Positions 4 through 35,578 of a stretch of 44,463 nt of DNA are shown in pieces. The DNA is taken from contig NW_026252183.1 in NCBI RefSeq assembly GCF_025399195.1, positions 1 to 44,463 on the forward strand, written 5' to 3'. The position numbers were made by a program, and so were the translations under genes. This DNA is from Umbelopsis ramanniana AG. Lineage: Eukaryota > Mucoromycota > Umbelopsidomycetes > Umbelopsidales > Umbelopsidaceae. The notes below the pieces were generated by a model. That model worked only from the letters and a program-made list of their open reading frames with translations. It made no database searches and had not been told where the DNA came from. Position 1 is the first letter of the stretch; each line of letters opens with the position of its first letter.

Positions 4-1744
4 ATGGAGGACGTCAAGTCCTCCCCAAAAACAAAAGCTGCAACCCCCCCCCCGTTCGCGCTTCCCAAGAAAGCACTCACCCATTTTCTTGTTGAAAACG
101 ATCGCATCAGTCTTTCGGACAACGATGACTTCCTTCCTGCCCCAAAGTATCGTCCCGTTGCAGTTGGACCTGTAAAGGTTTCAGCGCGAGCTCCTCAGCT
201 TAGCCAAGCAACGGCAAGCTAGAGAAGCTGCTATTCTCGCCAACCAAGTTCCTGCCGCTCCTATTGCTACCGCTGAGCCATCTCTTTCGCCCTTGCGCGA
301 ATCGTCTGACTACCAAGCCCGTCTTCGTCAACTTGCTCTACATGATCCCGTCACCGATCAAAGGTTTGGTCCCTCTATTCCTGCTTCATTCCACTCTAAT
401 GCCTCTTTGAATGCTTCTCTCCGCTCCGCTGATGGTGACGATTCTGAATCGACGCTTTCCACTTTTTCTAAAGGCAAAGGAAAAGCGCCCTTGAAGCTTA
501 CCTCGCGCATCGGTACCATGGTTAACAACCTTCTTGGTTCTAACCGTAGCCGATCCCCTTCACCAACTGTAACACTGTCTACAACCAAACGAGCTGCTTC
601 CCCGTCATACTCTGACAATAATCGGGCTACCCCTATCCGTATCATCAACCGTTACACTTCCGGTGCTCCTGGTTCTGCCACTGCTGTGACAGCTCCAATG
701 GAAGCCCTTCAAAGAGAAAATGAAGACTTACGACGACAAAACGCGGATCTTTTATTTCGAATCACTGAACTACAGCGAACCAACGAAATACAGTTGAAAA
801 AGATGGATAATCAAGCTACGCAAATGCTTGATTTACAATATTCCATTAATAACCTAACGAAAGACCTATCCGCCATGAACCATAACTACCAGCAACTTCT
901 TTCACAGGCTAGTGAAAACCGAGGTACGCTAGCTTCTAAGCATGCTCCACCTACAACACCTACAACAGCTCCCGCACGCCCCGACGCCATGGAACTCTTC
1001 GAAAATACAGCTGCTGCCGAACTTGTTGGTGATAAAAACAACGCCCGCCGCAACCAGAAGAACCAGAAGGACCAGCACCAGCGAGATATGACCGAGCAGA
1101 CTCCAAGCCCTGTACACCCCAGGCCTTGGAATGCCAAGCATATCCCTCAAACCACCATCACGTATGCTTCCGTGACCAAAAAAACAGTTGCCCCTACTGG
1201 CCGACCCAAGCAAAGTTATTCTGCTATTGCCGAGAAGCTGGTTTCCAACAAACCCACCGCTAACGCAGAAGCTGCTAAGAGTGCGCTCGCTTTCTTCCAC
1301 CAGAAACGAGTCCCTCATAAAAGCAGCACCGAACAGCGTCTTGGCCTGCGACGTATCTACGACAACGGCATCCCTCGAACCAGCTATAAGGATCTCAAAT
1401 CCCGCCTCTTCGCGTAGCACTTCATGTTAACAAAAATTGTTAACATAAGCTACATCGCCCAGAACTGTGTGGAATTTGTGATCCAGGATGACTACACCAC
1501 GTCCTTTCTCGCTAAGTGTAAAACTTTCCGCTTCCAAGTGATTGAAACAGATCCTACTAAACCACTTGATCCTAATTTCCCTGTAGATAAACTTGATGAA
1601 GTTAAGGCTTTGTTCGCCAAACGAGTCGCTAACATCATTCAAAACACTAAGCAAGACTCCGTTAAGGAGTTCTTTACTCAATATGCCGCAGAACTCAACA
1701 TTCTTTTGCCGATCTCTGATACTCCCATGGAATCTTCCCCATGA
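4..1744 (+). pseudogene. LINE ORF1 remnant (coiled-coil, nucleic-acid-binding-type ORF1p)
   Basis: Reading begins in one frame (4 to about 180) and continues in another (about 182-1417), so a single-base indel lies near 172-190. A TAG at 1415-1417 then interrupts the second frame, which reopens at once and runs to a TGA at 1742-1744. The middle (about 700-905) encodes a clear coiled coil with Leu/Ile heptads (ENEDLRRQNADLL, ITELQRTNE), typical of the trimerising part of LINE ORF1 proteins. The flanks are Ser/Pro/Thr- and Lys/Arg-rich and low complexity. No CCHC zinc knuckle or RRM is obvious. The stop overlaps the ORF2 start (ATGA at 1741-1744), suggesting that in the intact element ORF2 was translated by termination-reinitiation. 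Confidence 0.75.
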
Positions 1745-3846
1745 AGATATACCTACAAAATATGAAAGGGTTTTCACCCGAAAAACTAACTTCTTGCATT
1801 CAACTTCTAGACAAACATCTTGCCGATATGATCGTAATCACAGAGTCTTGGCATTTCTCTCGCTATAACACATACACTCCTTATCTATTAGCAACGTCCA
1901 CCCATGTCCCCAGGACAAACGGCCCAAGCGCCGGTGGACTAGCCATACTTGCACGACCTAATTTACGATCCAGCTTTACACTCCTTCACCAAACGACTCA
2001 TTCCATCACCTTCTCTCTCCACGGCCACTGCCTACATGCACTATACTTACCCCCGAGTATGCCATGGAATGTATGCCAACAACATATGCCCAAAACCAAA
2101 GTCTCTGTCCTTCTAGGCGACATTAATTACCATCCCAACGTTCCTTCTAAAAAATACATACCCTCGCTAATCCTGGATCCAAGAAAACAAGGCATCTCCG
2201 ATCTATGCCTTCAACATGATTTAAATTGGATTACGGACACCCCACCCTTCAAATATGACCATGTCCTCTTAGACTCTTCTCTCTTTACGACTGCCAACAC
2301 CCATGCTCCTATACACCCAAAAACCGACCATCACCTCGTCACCTTTATGCTTCCCCCAAAACCACCTCCATCACCCACATCCACTCCCCAAGCCATCCGA
2401 TTTAACCTCAAATACCTCGACGAACCTCTGCTCGCTGACCAACTGATCGCATGCTTTGAATTGTTATGGAATGAGCATTACCAACTCATGCACTTCCTTT
2501 CAGATCAAATAATGCAGTCCCAAGATATTTCCACCACGCAAGACATTATCGATACCGTTTATGCATTATACATGTCTTTAATCTCTACGTGTTGCGAAAC
2601 CATCCTGGGTACTTATACCCCTCAGCAACGCTGCTCGGAAATCGACCACTCCTTAAATCCAGCACTGCCCACTACCATACCGTCCGACTCTTCAAACGAA
2701 GTCAACGAGGAAATAGCAAGACACTCCTCTCCGATGATCCACTGCTTTCCCCTCTGGAAAGCGTTACTGACTTCTATACCAACCTCTATAACCCTCCACA
2801 CTCTGATCGCTTCCATTCCACCCTTTTCCACCGACAAGTGCACCCCCTCCCTGATAATCCACTACTTTTCTTTTCTTACACCAGAGAAGATTGCCAAACA
2901 TATTATGAAATACCCCAGTGCCAAAACCTTTGGCCTGGATGTCCTTCACAGTCGCATCTTCAAAGCACTCTCCTCTTCAACTGTTTTCCTTTCCTCTATG
3001 CAACTCCTCTTCTCCACATTTCTTTTTTCTACTCTTACACCTAGTATGTGGAATATATCCCAAATAACTCCTATACCCAAAAAATCCGATTCCTTTACCC
3101 CATCCTCCTCACGCCCAATCTCTCTCACACCATGTCTTCGCTAGATCTTTGAATCCATTCTCCTATCCTTTCTATACTCCCAACCCAAGCTCAACGTCTT
3201 TTCTCCCTTTCAAGCTGGCTTTTGCCCTGGCTACACCACCATCTCTCATTTATGGTGAGCCAATGCGTCAGCACACGCTCCATCCCAACAACGCAATTTC
3301 CATATCTTTCTTGATTTAGAGAAAGCCTATGACCGTGTCCCCATTTCCCGTCTCCTGGATAAACTTATCCTCCGCGACACTCCCACCGCACTAATTCAAC
3401 TTGTCGACTCTCTCTTCTCCTCTTGCTTTTCCCAAATGATTGTCAACCAATCTGTTGGCCCTCTATTGTCTCGCTCTGTAGGCCTCTTTCAAGGCAGCCT
3501 TCTCAGCCCATGGCTGTTCAATGTCTATATCAACGACCTTGCCGAAAAAATCGCTCGCATCGACTTCCATCCCTTCATTCCTCCTCTCCTCCTCTTTTCC
3601 GACGACATCTTACTCCGAACCCTCCACTCCTTCCATCGCCAAACGTATGCTATCCATTGTCCAAACCTGGATTGTTCACAATGGTATCAATGTCAATGTC
3701 AATGTCAACAAATCGGCCATTATTGACACCCCCTCCTCTCGCACTCTTAAACTGGCACTGAACGCTGTCCTATCGTTACTTCCTGTGATTACCTTGGCAT
3801 CCCCTTAACAGCCAATGGTCTTAATCATCTCTCTTATAATAAATGC
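1741..3846 (+). pseudogene. LINE ORF2 remnant: APE-type endonuclease plus reverse transcriptase
   Basis: The N-terminal endonuclease keeps the whole catalytic signature: LQNMKG (Asn), ITESW (Glu), GGLAIL, LLGDINYHPN (Asp/Asn) and TDHHLV (Asp-His). The RT part follows: TPIPK, RPISLTP, FQAGFCPGYTT, LDLEKAYDRV (first catalytic Asp), QGSLLSPWLFNVYIND and FSDDIL, the FADD/YADD box with a Ser variant. Damage: the frame changes near 2600-2700 and returns near 2860, there is a TAG at 3142-3144 and a TGA near 3256, the frame changes again near 3610-3660 and once more before YLGIPL. A hexamer TGTCAA repeats around 3686-3709. The C-terminal end and 3' UTR are missing. Confidence 0.85.
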
Positions 3847-28176: not shown

Positions 28177-29853
28177 TCATTCTCGTGACGGCGTGGGATA
28201 GCCGCCATTCTCAAATATCAAATCGTCCATTTGGGAGGCGCCTCGTAACAGCTCTTGTAACCACTCTTGGTTTCCAAGTATCGGGTCTGCAGCCGTAGGA
28301 GCTGACTCCAGAGTCAATGGTCTGTTGACAACAGGGAGAATTGGTTTGCCTATAACCTCTCGAGCGTATTGCGCAACTTGCAACCTTACGACATTTGCAA
28401 TGGGCCATGTCTCTCCAATTTGTCGGAGAGTACTGATAGCGAGCTGAATTTGCTCCTTCAACATTTGGGCCACAAAAGTTTCATTTTCTTCCTTATAGGC
28501 CGGCAACTGCACCGCTGTCGCAAAAGCGATGGCACACGCAAAGCACGGTGTATGCGTCTTAGTAGACTGCCCAGCAGACATGAGGCGAGTCAATCTAGAT
28601 GCGGCTTTGATGGCGGCTGCTTTATGACTTGCTGTATTTTCATCGACTTTTCTTGCTCTATCAGTCCAACAACTCGTTTTGAAGTGCTGTATACTTTGCA
28701 TTCCTGATCTGGGAAGATGAAGGCAAATGCTACCAAGGCTTATAAGCATATGCGCACAAAAAAGAACCTCATCGGTTTTACCGGAGCGAGAGATAACGTC
28801 CCTTTTGGGAACAGGTAAGTCCATCCAAAAATTTGCAATAGAGATCTCGGCTGCGTCAACCTGTGACTGAGTGGCCCAAGGGTCACCACTTAAATCGATG
28901 ATGTTAGTCATAATGCGGACCGCTTCAACCTTGTATGCGAATGACGACCAGGAAAAGCTTCCCTCCACCAGAAAGCGATGTTGCATATCTTGCAGAGTCT
29001 TTGTTGGTGAAGTTTGGCCATTGTTGTATTCCTCACAGTGGCAGGGCAATGGCAAGTTCCATGCGATGTCCACTTTCAACCCAAAAGGCATGATCAACGA
29101 AGCAATGCCGACTATTGTATAAAGTTCCCACCACGTACGCCTATAGCTCTCCCTGAGCAGCGCTTGCTCACCTAGCCCGTAATTTACATCGTTGAGACCG
29201 ATCTTTTTCGCAACATCGAGGGCCTGTGTCAGCATAATTCCTCCGGCTTCTCTTTCCAACCGAGCAAAAGAAGTTATTGCTAGAATGAGAAGAGCTTGAA
29301 CTTTGAATGCATCATCTGGTGCATCTGAAGTGAGAATTTCCATGACTACATTGAGATATGGCTCTGGATTCTTTGAAGTGAAGTGGCAGCCGACGGCTTG
29401 CATTGCTTTTTTCAGATGTTTGGGGATTATGCCATGATGCTGTAAATAGATACGTGGCGGTATTATAATGGTATGAGCTGGATGAAAGAACTGATAGTAT
29501 AAGTCGATCAAATATGTGCTGTCATCATCGTCGCTGAATTCTCGATCAACTGAAATTGTATCGTCTGTTGATGATAACGAAGCCGTAGAAAGTGGTACTG
29601 ATAAGTTTTGAAGCAGATCGAACGAAAAATCAGAGCCGCCACTTGTTGCCGTATGATCTCTTGGGGGCTGTTCAAGGTGTTTTCTTTTTGGACCTCGATA
29701 GCCTCGCCGGGATTCCACGTAGACGCAATCGCTACCTGTCGAAGTACACCGTGTGCATATCGGAATCCGACCATCGCATTTGACATGTTTGTTCCGACAA
29801 GCGAGACATGCCTTCGGGCTCGGCTTCATGACATTGGAGTCTGTTGAACCCAT
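28177..29853 (-). CDS. Zn(II)2Cys6 fungal transcription factor, probable regulator of the adjacent sulfur cluster
   Basis: A single exon of 558 residues. The binuclear zinc cluster is near the N-terminus: Cys16, 19, 26, 33, 36 and 43 (CX2CX6CX6CX2CX6C, in CLACRNKHVKCDG), followed by a basic linker RRGYRGPKRKH. Residues about 100-520 form the helical fungal-specific middle homology region (YLIDLYYQFFHPAH, RRTWWELYTIVGIASLIMP). Such proteins bind CGG half-sites, usually as dimers. It is divergent from the YeeE/YedE gene with 146 bp between start codons. That interval holds a CGG-N10-CCG pair and the TCGGGGACC element repeated before the neighbouring genes. The regulator role is inferred from position and sites; no ligand-sensing motif is visible. 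Single-exon, Ascomycota-like architecture. Confidence 0.9.
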   Translation of the reverse strand: MGSTDSNVMKPSPKACLACRNKHVKCDGRIPICTRCTSTGSDCVYVESRRGYRGPKRKHLEQPPRDHTATSGGSDFSFDLLQNLSVPLSTASLSSTDDTISVDREFSDDDDSTYLIDLYYQFFHPAHTIIIPPRIYLQHHGIIPKHLKKAMQAVGCHFTSKNPEPYLNVVMEILTSDAPDDAFKVQALLILAITSFARLEREAGGIMLTQALDVAKKIGLNDVNYGLGEQALLRESYRRTWWELYTIVGIASLIMPFGLKVDIAWNLPLPCHCEEYNNGQTSPTKTLQDMQHRFLVEGSFSWSSFAYKVEAVRIMTNIIDLSGDPWATQSQVDAAEISIANFWMDLPVPKRDVISRSGKTDEVLFCAHMLISLGSICLHLPRSGMQSIQHFKTSCWTDRARKVDENTASHKAAAIKAASRLTRLMSAGQSTKTHTPCFACAIAFATAVQLPAYKEENETFVAQMLKEQIQLAISTLRQIGETWPIANVVRLQVAQYAREVIGKPILPVVNRPLTLESAPTAADPILGNQEWLQELLRGASQMDDLIFENGGYPTPSRE

Positions 29854-29900
29854 ACAAAACGTGCTACTTGAAATACTTGAGAGACCAACTTTTTCAAACC

Positions 29901-29909
29901 TCGGGGACC
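29901..29909 (+). promoter_or_regulatory. Cluster element copy 1 (TCGGGGACC), YeeE/YedE and regulator promoter
   Basis: TCGGGGACC lies 99 bp before the YeeE/YedE ATG and 48 bp before the divergent regulator ATG. The 11-mer CTCGGGGACCA (29900-29910) recurs exactly at 33556-33566. It overlaps the CGG of a CGG-N10-CCG pair. Confidence 0.55.
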
Positions 29910-29917
29910 AGAGACCG
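29902..29917. promoter_or_regulatory. CGG-N10-CCG inverted half-sites
   Basis: CGG at 29902-29904 and CCG at 29915-29917, the spacing used by Put3-type Zn2Cys6 dimers. An identically spaced pair is at 31179-31194. Candidate operator of the divergent regulator. Confidence 0.45.
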
Positions 29918-29925
29918 TGACGTCA
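29918..29925. promoter_or_regulatory. CRE-like palindrome TGACGTCA
   Basis: A perfect ATF/CREB-type bZIP site directly abuts the CGG-N10-CCG pair. It could link the cluster to stress or sulfur/nitrogen bZIP factors. Confidence 0.4.
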
Positions 29926-29999
29926 TATCCCGAAGCCCGAAAAATGGAATACCTGTCAGATAAAAAGGGGTTCATTGTCGGAACTGTGTTTTACAAAGT

Positions 30000-31061
30000 A
30001 TGGATAGCTTAAAATCTACTAGCGCTGGCGTGGTCTTTGGTGCTGCCTTGACTTTATCCCGAGTCTACATACCAACAGTCATCATCAACCAATTGAGACT
30101 CCATGATTTTCATATGTTAGAGGTGTTCCTGACTGCCAGTGCATCTAGCGCGTAAGTTAACTTGACATAAATGATCTGCCAATACGATGATACTCACAGT
30201 AACTCCAGACTCATTATGTTGGGATTTGAGAAGTTCGGCATTGCTAAACGGTCTGTCAGAACCAATTCATCTCTCGGTTGGTTCTCCCGCTACGACGGAA
30301 ACATCATTGGTGGTAGTCTCTTAGGTGTCGGCATGGGCCTAACAGGAGCATGCCCTGGAACTGTGCTTCCTCAGCTTGCTCAGGGAATAGAATCCGCACG
30401 TTCGACCGCCCTAGGTGCAGTACTAGGTGGTGCCATCTACGCAAAATTCGGAAAGTCGCTGGTCTTCAATAGCCGTTTGAGCAAAGACGAGGTTCCAGCT
30501 GACCAAACCAATCATACTATTTCGTCAAAGTTCAACACATCGCCTTCAGCAACTTTGTTGACCTTTGAAGCCCTTGTGGTTACTTCTACTGCATTATCCG
30601 CTTTGTTGTTACCTGGAAAGACTTTTGCAATCTTGCCGACCGTGGTTGGTGGATTGCTCATAGGCGCTGCTCAAGTAGCCTCGATCTCCTTGACATCAAG
30701 CCCTCTAGGTGTTTCAAACGCCTACCAACAACTTGGCAGCTATCTTTGCAGAGTTATTAGGTTTAAGGATGTTCCACAACCACCCTTTCCACCAAAGTCC
30801 ATCCTCTTTGCGCTGGGTATACTGATTGGTAGTGCAGTTTCTGGTCCGCTCTTACCGACACTTGCAAACGCCGGAACTGTACCTATAACACATGTTCAGG
30901 CCATTGTAGGTGGATTTATTCTTATTGTTGGCGCTAGAATAGCAGGTGGTTGCACTTCAGGTCATGGACTGTCTGGCTTGGCAGCCATGTCATTTTCGAG
31001 TCTAATTACTACGGCGTCCATGTTTGGTGCTGGTATTATTACTCAGTTAATTTTAAAGTAG
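30000..31061 (+). CDS. YeeE/YedE (DUF395) family sulfur-compound permease
   Basis: Exons 30000-30151 and 30209-31061 (57-nt intron) give 334 residues. Two homologous halves each carry the family signature: GGSLLGVGMGLTGACPGT with Cys99, and GARIAGGCTSGHGLSG with Cys299. In bacterial TsuA (YeeE) such in-channel Cys residues relay thiosulfate by transient S-H...S contacts. About nine hydrophobic segments are visible, so this is an integral membrane protein, likely moving thiosulfate or a related sulfur species. The splice restores the first helix (AGVVFGAALTLSRVYIPT); an alternative acceptor at 30199 would give an immediate stop. It is followed 239 bp later by a persulfide dioxygenase-like gene, the pairing seen in bacterial sulfide-detoxification operons. 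Bacterial origin by transfer is possible. Confidence 0.9.
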
Positions 31062-31178
31062 ACAGACCTTTAATAAAACAGAGTATCCAGACCTTGCTTT
31101 AATTCGTACATCCTTCGCACATTCGTATGTTGAGCACATCTGAAACCTGCATTTCGGATTTCATTCCCTTGAACCGGT

Positions 31179-31194
31179 CGGCGATGTTCACCCG
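31179..31194. promoter_or_regulatory. CGG-N10-CCG inverted half-sites, persulfide dioxygenase promoter
   Basis: CGG at 31179-31181 and CCG at 31192-31194, 107 bp before the ATG at 31301. Same arrangement as at 29902-29917. Confidence 0.45.
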
Positions 31195-31208
31195 CTTCCA
31201 GTGTATTA

Positions 31209-31217
31209 TCGGGGACA
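31209..31217 (+). promoter_or_regulatory. Cluster element copy 2 (TCGGGGACA)
   Basis: TCGGGGACA lies 92 bp before the ATG of the ETHE1-like gene, in the same orientation as the other copies. Confidence 0.5.
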
Positions 31218-31300
31218 AGCCTGAACCCTCAAATCCGATAAATAGTGATCTTGTTCAAGTGATTTATCATTTTTTTTTAATTAGAATTTTCTCCTCAAGT

Positions 31301-32209
31301 ATGGATCCAATCGTACACTCCCTATATGAACCAGTCACTGGCACCTGGCAGTACGTTGTTGCTGACCCATCAAAGCGAGAAGCTACGATCATTGACCCAG
31401 TTCTTGACTATGACAAAGAAAGTGGTGATATCGACATTAACTCAGCAGACATCCTTCTCAAACTGGTTGAAGACAACAAATACAAAATCTGCTACATCTT
31501 GGAGACACATGCGCACGCTGACCATCTTTCAGCTTCTCGTTACCTCCAAAGCGTCCTAGGACATCGTCAATCTGTTGCGCCTGAGGTTTGTATTGGGCAT
31601 CGCATCGTACAAGTCCAACAGACTTTCGGCACAATGTACTCTATACCGCAAGCAGAACTTGAGAATGCATTTGACCGACTTCTGCAAGACGAGGAAGAAT
31701 TAGTTCTTGGCAATCTCATTATCCGTGTTATTCACTTGCCTGGACATACACCCGACCACGTTGGCTACATCATAGGAAGCAATGTCTTTACGGGCGATTC
31801 CATTTTCAACCCGGATGTTGGTTCAGCTAGATGTGACTTTCCTGGCGGTTCGGCCACAACTCTTTATCAATCTACACGAAGGCTTCTTAGTCTTCCAGAG
31901 TACTACAGGCTGTATACTGGACATGACTACCCACCACCTGATCGTTCTATTAATGTTGCATCAGATGAGTCAACGGCCGTTCCCTTTACAACTGTAGGAA
32001 AGCAGCGGCTTGAAAACAAGCATCTCAAGGCCGGTACCTCCGAAGAAGAGTTTGTGAATTGGAGAAATGAGAGAGACAGTGGCCTCCAAACACCAAAGCT
32101 ACTTGTTCCATCTATCAGGACCAATATTCGAGGCGGCCGTCTGCCACAGTCTAGTGAAGATGGATTTAAAATAGTGAAGGTGCCTGCAAGCGTGGTTAGG
32201 GTACAATGA
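31301..32209 (+). CDS. ETHE1/Blh-like metallo-beta-lactamase-fold persulfide dioxygenase
   Basis: 302 residues from the ATG at 31301 (MDPIVHSLYE). The frame is open further upstream, but that part is non-conserved and contains the promoter elements. The MBL motif THAHADH holds His70, His72, Asp74 and His75. HLPGHTPDH gives His149, GDSIFNPDVG gives Asp166 and TGHDY gives His208. The His70/His149/Asp166 set corresponds to the mononuclear iron ligands of ETHE1. GSARCDFPGGSATTLYQS is typical of the bacterial Blh/ETHE1 group that oxidises glutathione persulfide to sulfite. No rhodanese or DUF442 domain and no mitochondrial presequence is evident, so it is probably cytosolic. Next to a YeeE/YedE permease, it points to detoxification of sulfide or thiosulfate-derived sulfane sulfur. 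Confidence 0.9.
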   Translation: MDPIVHSLYEPVTGTWQYVVADPSKREATIIDPVLDYDKESGDIDINSADILLKLVEDNKYKICYILETHAHADHLSASRYLQSVLGHRQSVAPEVCIGHRIVQVQQTFGTMYSIPQAELENAFDRLLQDEEELVLGNLIIRVIHLPGHTPDHVGYIIGSNVFTGDSIFNPDVGSARCDFPGGSATTLYQSTRRLLSLPEYYRLYTGHDYPPPDRSINVASDESTAVPFTTVGKQRLENKHLKAGTSEEEFVNWRNERDSGLQTPKLLVPSIRTNIRGGRLPQSSEDGFKIVKVPASVVRVQ

Positions 32210-32294
32210 ATACCTTATCTCCGTAACTTTAAATCTTAAAAGAAAATACAACATTGTATTAAATCATCACTTTCTTTAAATAAAGCTTTGAGCT

Positions 32295-32308
32295 ATCTCG
32301 GCCGAGAT
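32295..32308. promoter_or_regulatory. 14-bp palindrome containing CGGCCG
   Basis: ATCTCGGCCGAGAT is its own reverse complement and holds abutting CGG/CCG half-sites. It lies 160-170 bp before the DUF1275 ATG and 86 bp after the dioxygenase stop, so it could be an operator or part of a 3' hairpin. Confidence 0.35.
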
Positions 32309-32373
32309 TTCGCTTCATATTCTTTGATTGACTTGAAAAGTTTCGGCATTCTTGAGTGCTGACAAAAATTTCT

Positions 32374-32382
32374 TCGGTCGCC
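32374..32382 (+). promoter_or_regulatory. Cluster element copy 4, diverged (TCGGTCGCC)
   Basis: TCGGTCGCC matches the cluster element at six of nine positions and lies 93 bp before the DUF1275 ATG, the same place as the other copies. It also forms CGG-N3-CCG at 32375-32383. Confidence 0.35.
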
Positions 32383-32466
32383 GATCATTTATTCACACTG
32401 AGCAGCCCAAAGCTGGATAATTTCTTTAAAAAGGGCCACCACCCAATTGTCCTCGTAACAACGTTG

Positions 32467-33297
32467 ATGATGACAGAGGAGATTAAATTTGACGAAGGAA
32501 CCATATCTACAACGAATGACGTTGACTCAAGCAACGCATTTCGGCAAATTCGGCCGCACTTGAACTCCCTCTGGCAGTATTCGCTTTTCGATTTAAGCGT
32601 AGATTCTCTCGTCGAGTTTCAACTGCTCCTTGCGACTTTCTGTACTGGATTACAGGACGCTATATCGTATCCTGACTTTCGCTGCTTCGCATCCAATCAA
32701 ACGGGTAACACCGTGGTGCTCGCTGTCGGTATTGCCAATTACAACTATTATGCCTCCCAAAAGGATTCGCTCTTCCATCTTCCGAATATCGCCATGTCCC
32801 TTGGTATGTTTCTCGCTGGTGCAACTATTACAGGCCAACTGGGGAATTATGTGGGAGGAAGAAGACGTGGATGGCAGTTTATTACAAATTTGGCGCAGAC
32901 AATGATGATATTCGGAGCAGCTGGAATCCAGTATGCCCATGATGTGCAGGAGACCGGACCGTGGGCTCTGGCAGTAGTTGCCTTGCTGGCGTTTTCTTCT
33001 GGTGCTCAAGTTGCAGCGGCAAGAGCTTTCCGAGTTCAAGAAATTACCACGGCAATGGCTACAGCTGCTTGGGTGGATCTGGTTATTGACCCAAAATTGC
33101 TGAAAACGAAGAACCATCCCCGGGATAGAAGGGCTCTTTTTCTCGTTGCACTCATTGCTGGCGGATTTGCAGGGGCTTTCATGTACTCTAAAATTGGAAG
33201 CCCTTCTGCACTCGTTATAAGTGCTACTGGCAAGACACTTGTGACCGCTTTGATGCTGCTTCCCAAGAAAGCTCACGAGGGGTCTAGTTTTGTATAA
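32467..33297 (+). CDS. DUF1275 (YoaK-family) membrane protein
   Basis: 276 residues from the first in-frame ATG at 32467 (MMTEEIKFDE). The family hallmarks are present: FCTGLQDAISYPDFRCFASNQTGNTVVLAVG near the first helix, then FLAGATITGQLG, ALLAFSSGAQVAAARAFRVQEITTAMAT and WVDLVIDPKLL. About six hydrophobic segments. YoaK/DUF1275 proteins are common in bacteria and filamentous fungi, are thought to be transporters, and have no firm substrate. It is the third plus-strand gene of the compact cluster, 257 bp after the dioxygenase, with a diverged copy of the shared promoter element 93 bp upstream. That suggests a transport role connected with sulfur compounds, which is inference only. Confidence 0.88.
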   Translation: MMTEEIKFDEGTISTTNDVDSSNAFRQIRPHLNSLWQYSLFDLSVDSLVEFQLLLATFCTGLQDAISYPDFRCFASNQTGNTVVLAVGIANYNYYASQKDSLFHLPNIAMSLGMFLAGATITGQLGNYVGGRRRGWQFITNLAQTMMIFGAAGIQYAHDVQETGPWALAVVALLAFSSGAQVAAARAFRVQEITTAMATAAWVDLVIDPKLLKTKNHPRDRRALFLVALIAGGFAGAFMYSKIGSPSALVISATGKTLVTALMLLPKKAHEGSSFV

Positions 33298-33556
33298 TGT
33301 TTAGAGTACTTAGAGCGCTGAAATATAACGCACGAATAATTGAATATCCAAAGACTGTGTGATTAAATAGCCGAGCTATACACCAATTTCGACACTACGA
33401 ACATTACACAGTAATGGTTAATGGTATGGCACAGCGAAATGTCAAGCTCAAATTCGAGTGATCGACTTGATCAGTAATGTTTCACTGAATTGTTTCCACC
33501 ACACAATACCCAGTTTAAACCAGCAATTCAGATAGGCGTTCAGCCCATCACGTGGC

Positions 33557-33565
33557 TCGGGGACC
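33557..33565 (+). promoter_or_regulatory. Cluster element copy 3 (TCGGGGACC)
   Basis: TCGGGGACC lies 98 bp before the ATG of the small cysteine-rich protein. It is part of an 11-mer identical to the copy in the regulator/permease promoter. A second CGG follows at 33573-33575. Confidence 0.5.
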
Positions 33566-33654
33566 ATCTAATCGGCGAACACATTTTGCGTGAATTATAT
33601 CTGTTCCCCGTTTTTCGCCAGACACTTCTTTCTTCTACACAGACAAAACTCGTC

Positions 33655-33884
33655 ATGTGCAAAAAGGCAACTTGTGATACCTGCGGTAAGTATGCCTACA
33701 ATCTGAATGACGTCTCTTCGCATATCTAACCTGTATTCCAGGCAAGCGCTCCTGGTGGGGATGCGGATACCATATTCCCTCCGTCATGGACTCTGTCCCA
33801 GAGGAAGAACGATGCAAATGTGAGCCCGCAGTTAAAGTAGAAGGCAAGGACTATCCGCCAAAGGCAGGAAAGCCGGACGAGTAG
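33655..33884 (+). CDS. Conserved 57-residue cysteine-rich protein
   Basis: Exons 33655-33685 and 33742-33884 (56-nt intron) give 57 residues: MCKKATCDTCGKRSWWGCGY, then HIPSVMDSVPEEERCKCEP and a basic/Pro tail. Six Cys (2, 7, 10, 18, 35, 37) plus a His form CxxC- and CxC-type pairs, suggesting a small metal- or sulfur-binding protein. I recognise the GCG-HIPSVMD-P-RC-CEP pattern as a small family of uncharacterised proteins in fungi and other organisms, from memory. Without the splice the first exon reads into a stop after 24 codons. It is the last gene of the compact plus-strand run and shares the TCGGGGACC promoter element, so co-regulation with the sulfur genes is likely. Confidence 0.85.
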
Positions 33885-34876: not shown

Positions 34877-35578
34877 CTAACCCCTGGCAAACCTTTGCAG
34901 ATTATCTATTGAGCTCATCCATGCATCTGGGTATCCAGGCACGGGTCCCTTGTCAGCATATTGCCAGAAGACATTGTTAGTCCAACCGTTGGGTAAGGGT
35001 CTGGGCGACGGAGAATAGCTAATGATCCAAAGCGGATTGGTATTACCAAAGCTCGGATTGTCATTAGTGCATGCCTTCCACCAATTCGTGGATGTGCTGA
35101 TAACAGGATAACGGCCAGTGCGAGCGTGGTAAGTATTGCTGAAGTCTCTAATCCAGATTATCATAGAGGCCGGGGACAAGCCATAACAAGGATTCCCATA
35201 AGGGTTTCGCTCTAATTCTAACGCACCAGGAAGAGTTATTCCATCAGCAGTCCAGACACCTCCATAAGAAAGGAAATGGGTTGCCTGAGCAGCACCAGAA
35301 GACTTGTCAGGCAGGGCAACATGGTATGCTCCACGAATAAAGCGTGTGTGGGTTGCACCGAGGTACTGAGTGTTAAATGTACTGCTGACCATTTTCAATC
35401 CCTCGGTTGCTTTGATATAGACAAATGTAAGTCCGGTAGCCTTGACCGATGCCCAGTTTACATGGGGATTGTAATTGCTAATATCGAATCCTTGAACCAA
35501 ACTGGACAAGCCAACTTGAGCGCAAGAGAGCAAAGCTAGTGTGACAAGAATGAGTTTCGTTATTTTGTCGTAATGGAA
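34877..35578 (-). CDS. GH25 (Chalaropsis-type) lysozyme-like gene without an AUG start; possible pseudogene
   Basis: The frame runs from just after a stop at 35579-35581 to 34877. It encodes a signal-peptide-like stretch (KLILVTLALLSCAQVG) and a full GH25 domain: GFDISNYN, YIKATEG, IRGAYHVALP, GALELERNPYGNPCYG, TGRYPVIS and FWQYADKGPVPG. GH25 enzymes cleave bacterial peptidoglycan at N-acetylmuramic acid. Two oddities appear. No in-frame ATG precedes the signal peptide, although a TATA-like box (TATTTAAG, 35608-35615) stands at the usual distance; a C/T change and a one-base loss near 35563-35571 would explain this. The catalytic Asp-x-Glu motif reads Glu-Leu-Glu. Either translation starts at a non-AUG codon, a short first exon exists (ATG near 35634, weak GTAGTA donor), or the gene is dying. 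Confidence 0.7.
   Translation of the reverse strand, partial: FHYDKITKLILVTLALLSCAQVGLSSLVQGFDISNYNPHVNWASVKATGLTFVYIKATEGLKMVSSTFNTQYLGATHTRFIRGAYHVALPDKSSGAAQATHFLSYGGVWTADGITLPGALELERNPYGNPCYGLSPASMIIWIRDFSNTYHARTGRYPVISTSTNWWKACTNDNPSFGNTNPLWIISYSPSPRPLPNGWTNNVFWQYADKGPVPGYPDAWMSSIDNLQRFARG

Follow-up and report, generated by a model that had tools for sequence, protein, structure and literature searches.

A shared promoter element and a candidate sulfide/persulfide-oxidation regulon in the fungus Umbelopsis ramanniana

Introduction

Fungal transcription factors of the zinc-cluster (Zn2Cys6) type carry a domain that reads CGG. In this article, we describe a short CGG-containing element, with the 8-mer core TCGGGGAC, that stands 92 to 99 bp upstream of three genes of a sulfur-related cluster in a 44,463-nucleotide stretch of the Umbelopsis ramanniana AG genome (contig NW_026252183.1; hereafter the window), and that recurs upstream of a gene for a rhodanese-ETHE1 fusion on another contig, C55. 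The cluster comprises a divergently transcribed Zn2Cys6 regulator and, on the plus strand, genes for a YeeE-type transporter, an ETHE1-like dioxygenase, a DUF1275 membrane protein and a small cysteine-rich protein. We regard it as highly probable that the shared word is a real regulatory element, and on balance we lean towards the fuller explanation that it is an upstream activating element of a sulfide/persulfide-oxidation regulon.

Three described systems offer the closest comparisons. Put3 of Saccharomyces cerevisiae reads CGG(N10)CCG in its upstream activating sequence (UAS), contacting spacer bases too (PMC5729217). Pho7, which governs the phosphate regulon of Schizosaccharomyces pombe, recognizes TCG(G/C)(A/T)xxTTxAA, a single site being sufficient at tgp1 (PMC5559640). 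The bigR operon of Xylella and Agrobacterium groups a regulator gene with those for a sulfur-compound transporter and an ETHE1-type sulfur dioxygenase, the whole serving sulfide oxidation (PMC5823870).

The Umbelopsis cluster keeps the same gene company as the bigR operon, and its enzyme, which matches the dioxygenase half of Blh, is by sequence of the Blh/ETHE1 sulfur dioxygenase type expected in a bigR-type operon. Unlike Blh, it lacks DUF442; the bigR transporter is TauE-related, whereas that of the cluster is of the YeeE type, and the cluster genes have separate promoters instead of forming an operon. The regulators differ as well, the bacterial one being a winged-helix repressor acting at -10 and the fungal one a zinc-cluster protein. 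A BigR-type repressor was thus rejected for the cluster.

Copies of the element in the window

The copies, and a fourth that had been claimed, are as follows.

29901..29909, plus strand: element copy 1, TCGGGGACC, within the 11-mer CTCGGGGACCA at 29900-29910; 99 bp to the YeeE ATG (30000)
31209..31217, plus strand: element copy 2, TCGGGGACA; 92 bp to the ETHE1-like ATG (31301)
33557..33565, plus strand: element copy 3, TCGGGGACC, within CTCGGGGACCAT at 33556-33567; 98 bp to the ATG of the small cysteine-rich gene (33655)
32374..32382, plus strand: TCGGTCGCC, claimed as a diverged copy before DUF1275; unsupported, with 3 mismatches of 9

An initial annotation, made by reading the window, had reported TCGGGGAC at 29901, 31209 and 33557 and nowhere else in it, and a scan of both strands agrees, finding three exact matches in total, all on the plus strand. 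The common orientation, the distances to the three ATGs and the 11-mer shared by copies 1 and 3 were likewise borne out. The 9-mer TCGGGGACC, which that annotation had put forward as the shared element, is exact in two of the three copies, copy 2 ending in A (TCGGGGACA). Its broader statement, that the element precedes every plus-strand gene of the cluster, holds for three of the four and fails at DUF1275. The diverged copy proposed there carries no statistical weight, because the window holds 535 matches with up to three mismatches against 557 expected, and we dropped it. In shuffled versions of the window, TCGGGGAC occurred 0.57 times on average, and three copies were reached in 1 of 100 shuffles.

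Copy 1 is also 48 bp from the ATG of the divergent regulator (29853). For copy 2, its place in a promoter depends on where the dioxygenase begins. The start at 31301 fits two relatives of 302 amino acids, P0071 from Umbelopsis sp. AD052 and P0072 from a metagenome contig. Lengths among further close relatives range from 301 to 325 amino acids, and even with the longest extension among them (P0073) the protein would begin downstream of the element. A longer open reading frame from 31127, in which copy 2 would be coding, had no such support among relatives. As a separate observation, CGGGGACAAGCC of copy 2 occurs again at 35171, on the minus strand inside a GH25-type gene, probably by coincidence.

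A fourth promoter, on contig C55

The strongest support for a shared element is a promoter outside the window, which gives more than the window alone could. A genome search with the cluster dioxygenase gave matches beyond the cluster on three contigs: C55 with three rows, and C10 and C9 with a single weaker row apiece. The closest relative is the rhodanese-ETHE1 fusion on C55. One of the 39 genomic 9-mer sites, C55:44663, adjoins this gene. The gene lies on the minus strand, and its eight exons splice to a rhodanese-ETHE1 protein (Pfam) of 443 amino acids. K450DRAFT_253893 of U. ramanniana AG matches it at every residue (443 of 443), and this identity bears out the start codon at position 2468 of the extracted locus, L037. 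In that locus the extended word CTCGGGGACCAT occupies 2563-2574, with the 9-mer at 2564-2572, that is, 96-104 bp before the ATG and in a gap of 132 bp that follows a queuosine-salvage gene (PF10343).

By simple arithmetic on the 37 outside sites, a 9-mer would fall in the 200 bp upstream of any of the three matched places (C55, C10 and C9) with a chance of about 0.001, or about 0.004 if 13 sulfur-type matches are counted. The idea of a shared cis-element, as first proposed, is hence carried by three cluster promoters and by CTCGGGGACCAT about 100 bp before the rhodanese-ETHE1 gene; it does not extend to every gene of the cluster or to a fourth copy within it.

Chance and genome-wide background

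Could three coincident words, picked out by a careful reader, have been joined by a coincident match on C55? The frequency of the word leaves room for this: across the 22.8-Mb genome the 8-mer occurs 140 times against 187 for the reversed control, and the 9-mer 39 times against 44. The initial annotation had held that a word common at random positions would speak against the element, and on this count the result is divided, the frequency being at chance level while the clustering of three copies and their places in promoters stand out from it. From 140 sites, about 0.035 triples within 3.66 kb are expected (arithmetic), and among the places listed (139 of 140) no three copies other than those in the window lie within 3.7 kb of each other.

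Since the word had been picked after looking, the whole class of 8-mers was tested, counting any 8-mer present in at least three of four promoters at distances to the ATG within 10 bp of each other. The comparison quadruples were random segments from loci mostly holding the word, as distinct from mapped promoters, and Markov sets served as a further comparison. With 300-bp promoters, none of 4000 genomic quadruples and one of 4000 Markov sets showed position-coherent sharing; with 500-bp promoters, neither kind did (4000 of each). In a further draw of 3000, one set shared an 8-mer in this way and 11 shared a 7-mer. Without the position condition, sharing of an 8-mer is common (227 and 923 of 4000 random quadruples for 300 and 500 bp, respectively), so the evidence lies in the position and not in the word. 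Taken with the fourth promoter, where an extended word stands at a nearly equal distance, this coherence makes pure coincidence quite unlikely, even with the unpositioned sharing and the unremarkable genome-wide count in its favour.

Other genomic sites of the word

The number of 9-mer sites suggests that most of the 39 are probably chance occurrences. Open reading frames at the 37 outside sites were selected by size and nearness, a sample in which introns split many genes, and Pfam matches on these placed a sulfur gene at one site of the 37. At another (locus L027 on contig C31, near 2497), an L7Ae-family gene has TCGGGGACC in its own orientation 106 bp upstream of its ATG, which shows that a site can come to stand at this distance with no sulfur connection.

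The L7Ae-family gene, which also lends something to the chance account, and the fixed distance to the ATG would both suit a core-promoter element near -95 that this fungus uses generally, with no specificity for sulfur. We consider such an element very improbable: 39 9-mers in 22.8 Mb show no excess over the control, the C55 copy is reversed, and at least two sites fall inside coding sequence by Pfam. These two, in L039 and L041 (the latter by a first-exon match slightly below the cut-off), belong to the eight contexts of the 11-mer CTCGGGGACCA, six outside the window and two within it. Three of the eight are sulfur promoters, two are coding, and the other three are L022, where a possible fucosidase starts about 200 bp downstream, L040 and L045.

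Further sulfur genes were sought near the word. Among the ten rhodanese matches in the genome, that on C55 alone is less than 1 kb from a listed site; those on C17 and C25 have an 8-mer about 3 kb off, and the remainder are farther from sites or on contigs with no site listed. A Pyr_redox_2 search, in which 10 of 53 candidates were scored, gave 13 matches, and no site was close to any of them; a degenerate pattern for an SQR peptide found no match. The signal of a codon-usage scan was too weak for gene placement.

Several of these observations weigh against a sulfur-regulon element. The word is unenriched genome-wide, a sulfur gene was recognized at only one of the 37 outside sites, and the L7Ae-family promoter carries the word at -106; within the cluster, the DUF1275 promoter lacks it. 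The C55 promoter was noticed rather than predicted, its element is in reverse orientation, and the scan found no TATA-like word downstream of it, the only candidate being TTAAAA at -136, upstream. No second CGG half-site is common to the four promoters, and both the word and the distance tolerance were picked after looking.

Promoter architecture and the candidate binder

Downstream of the element, each of the three cluster promoters has a TATA-like word, at -41 (YeeE), -64 (ETHE1) and -59 (the small gene). The TATA-like TAAAAAGGG has only two copies in the window, at 29961 and 32427, about 40 bp before the YeeE and DUF1275 ATGs. The element contains one invariant CGG, from which the next CGG or CCG downstream lies at +13, +25, +15 and +16 in the four promoters. 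With four different distances, a dimeric site of fixed spacing of the Gal4/Put3 type was rejected; the sequence fits a monomeric single-CGG mode, as in Pho7 or AlcR, with one TCGG core without symmetry. Elsewhere, a perfect 14-bp palindrome, ATCTCGGCCGAGAT, at 32295-32308 (159-172 bp before the DUF1275 ATG), sets two CTCGG half-sites back to back; it is the single copy in the window.

The DNA-binding domain of the regulator, compared with solved structures, is closest to Put3 (1AJY, E 2.2e-6), with Lac9 also near. It shares with Put3 a histidine that is invariant in 17 of 17 aligned homologs and is a lysine in Lac9, and that, judged by cysteine spacing, appears to occupy the position of Gal4 Lys18. 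From its family, the domain would be expected to read CGG, and a zinc-cluster gene does lie near the element. According to the Pho7 paper, Gal4 Lys18 contacts CGG (PMC5559640).

Set against the Put3 UAS, the likeness lies in this domain and in copy 1, the only one of the four promoters with a CGG-N10-CCG arrangement; no CCG follows at N10 in copies 2 and 3 or in the copy on C55, and the putative targets are sulfur genes, not proline genes. Pho7 shares the lone TCGG without a symmetric partner (PMC5559640), whereas the downstream part of its site differs and its targets are those of the phosphate regulon. It has asparagine at the Gal4 Lys18 position (PMC5559640), where the cluster regulator, by cysteine spacing, has histidine.

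The divergent Zn2Cys6 protein is in our judgement the best candidate binder, with the case for it evenly poised; we favour it to this extent because reading a single TCGG without symmetry is known from Pho7. Another protein may bind instead, because the genome holds 46 Zn_clus matches and because words resembling bZIP and E-box sites flank three copies: bZIP-like TGACGTCA (29918) by copy 1, CACGTG (33549) by copy 3 and TGACTCA (L037 near 2553) beside the C55 copy, all possible bZIP/bHLH partner sites. The element would then be a genuine sulfur-regulon site served by a factor such as a general regulator of sulfur or stress responses, one that had controlled an old rhodanese-ETHE1 gene before the cluster arrived. 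The single CGG without a fixed partner suits this too, as does distribution: among the matches listed, named relatives of rhodanese-ETHE1 occur in many Mucoromycota genera, and no Mucorales appear among the named matches of the regulator. Conversely, linkage to the cluster and a domain of the CGG-reading type speak for the divergent regulator, and a literature search for TCGGGG or TCGGGGA in a zinc-cluster context returned no factor, the string being either absent from the papers listed or a PCR primer in them. We see a different binder as possible, if doubtful.

A proposed regulon

Under the preferred explanation, TCGGGGAC(C)A would be an upstream activating element serving a small regulon for sulfide/persulfide oxidation in U. 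ramanniana. Its targets, each with the element about 95 bp before the start, would be the YeeE-type transporter, the ETHE1/Blh-type dioxygenase, the small cysteine-rich protein and the rhodanese-ETHE1 protein of C55. With the element upstream of TATA-like boxes in the three cluster promoters, a sulfur-responsive activator bound to it could jointly switch on the transport and oxidation of sulfane sulfur. The likeliest such activator would be the divergent Zn2Cys6 protein; it would recognize chiefly a single TCGG half-site, and with copy 1 in the divergent intergenic region it could also control its own gene. Positions and distances are read directly from the DNA, as are their coherence beyond chance and the fourth promoter; activation, ligand and binder we infer.

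A cluster regulator with its own site is familiar in fungi; a sulfur-dioxygenase target set is undescribed in the part of the literature searched. Bacterial sensors that switch on persulfide oxidation, BigR and SqrR, are described, and the part of the open literature searched contained no fungal counterpart to them and no fungal sulfide regulon. One nine-base element, four predicted target promoters and one candidate protein make the question of a fungal sensor testable.

Linkage and history of the cluster

Homologs of the regulator and of the dioxygenase occur on contigs of equal size in five pairs among the matches listed (237,865 in AD052, 1,059,948 in PMI_123 and 1,888,633 in U. isabellina, with 60,566 and 92,219 in metagenomes), which suggests that their linkage has been kept across relatives, qualified in U. 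isabellina by locus tags 28 apart. An AD052 relative of rhodanese-ETHE1 is also on a contig of 237,865, so that it and the cluster loci may share one scaffold in that strain. Outside Umbelopsis, the named relatives of regulator and dioxygenase among the matches listed belong to Pezizomycotina. Among the regulator matches listed, U. vinacea and U. nana are absent. Scanning a viral-contig collection with the regulator found no relative and no fungal DNA, and a contig search with a fungal ETHE1 profile gave 15 weak, uninformative relatives.

These distributions, read from the matches listed and not from a tree, allow a bolder proposal, which we think unlikely as it stands: the zinc-cluster regulator may have arrived with the sulfide-oxidation cluster, which has relatives in Pezizomycotina, and captured the native Mucoromycota rhodanese-ETHE1 gene by gain of a site near -100, which would make it the first fungal activator responsive to persulfide or sulfide. 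In this system one could also test how a cluster of patchy distribution gets wired to a native gene.

Genes of the cluster

The cluster genes are as follows.

28177..29853, minus strand: Zn2Cys6 transcription factor, candidate binder (PF00172 and PF04082; the database copy P0001 starts 8 residues later)
30000..31061, plus strand: YeeE/YedE-type sulfur transporter, exons 30000-30151 and 30200-31061 (PF04143, E 2.5e-28 on the second exon)
31301..32209, plus strand: predicted ETHE1/Blh-type sulfur dioxygenase, 302 amino acids (PF00753, metallo-beta-lactamase fold; NF040641, Blh)
32467..33297, plus strand: DUF1275 membrane protein (PF06912, E 3.2e-38)
33655..33884, plus strand: 57-amino-acid cysteine-rich protein, exons 33655-33685 and 33742-33884, with CxxC and CxC motifs

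The dioxygenase matches the Blh model NF040641 (E 1.7e-84) over the dioxygenase half only (model positions 142-421 of 423), at a score of 284 bits that is below the full-length cut-off of 625. A TsuA model gave matches far below its cut-off on the YeeE-type transporter. The 57-amino-acid protein belongs to no family in Pfam or NCBIfam; small proteins resembling it occur in many fungi. Neither the YeeE nor the DUF1275 nor the small cysteine-rich gene has a second match in the genome. Neighbouring plus-strand open reading frames at 518-3144, the last with an endonuclease/exonuclease/phosphatase match below the cut-off, look like retroelement remains.

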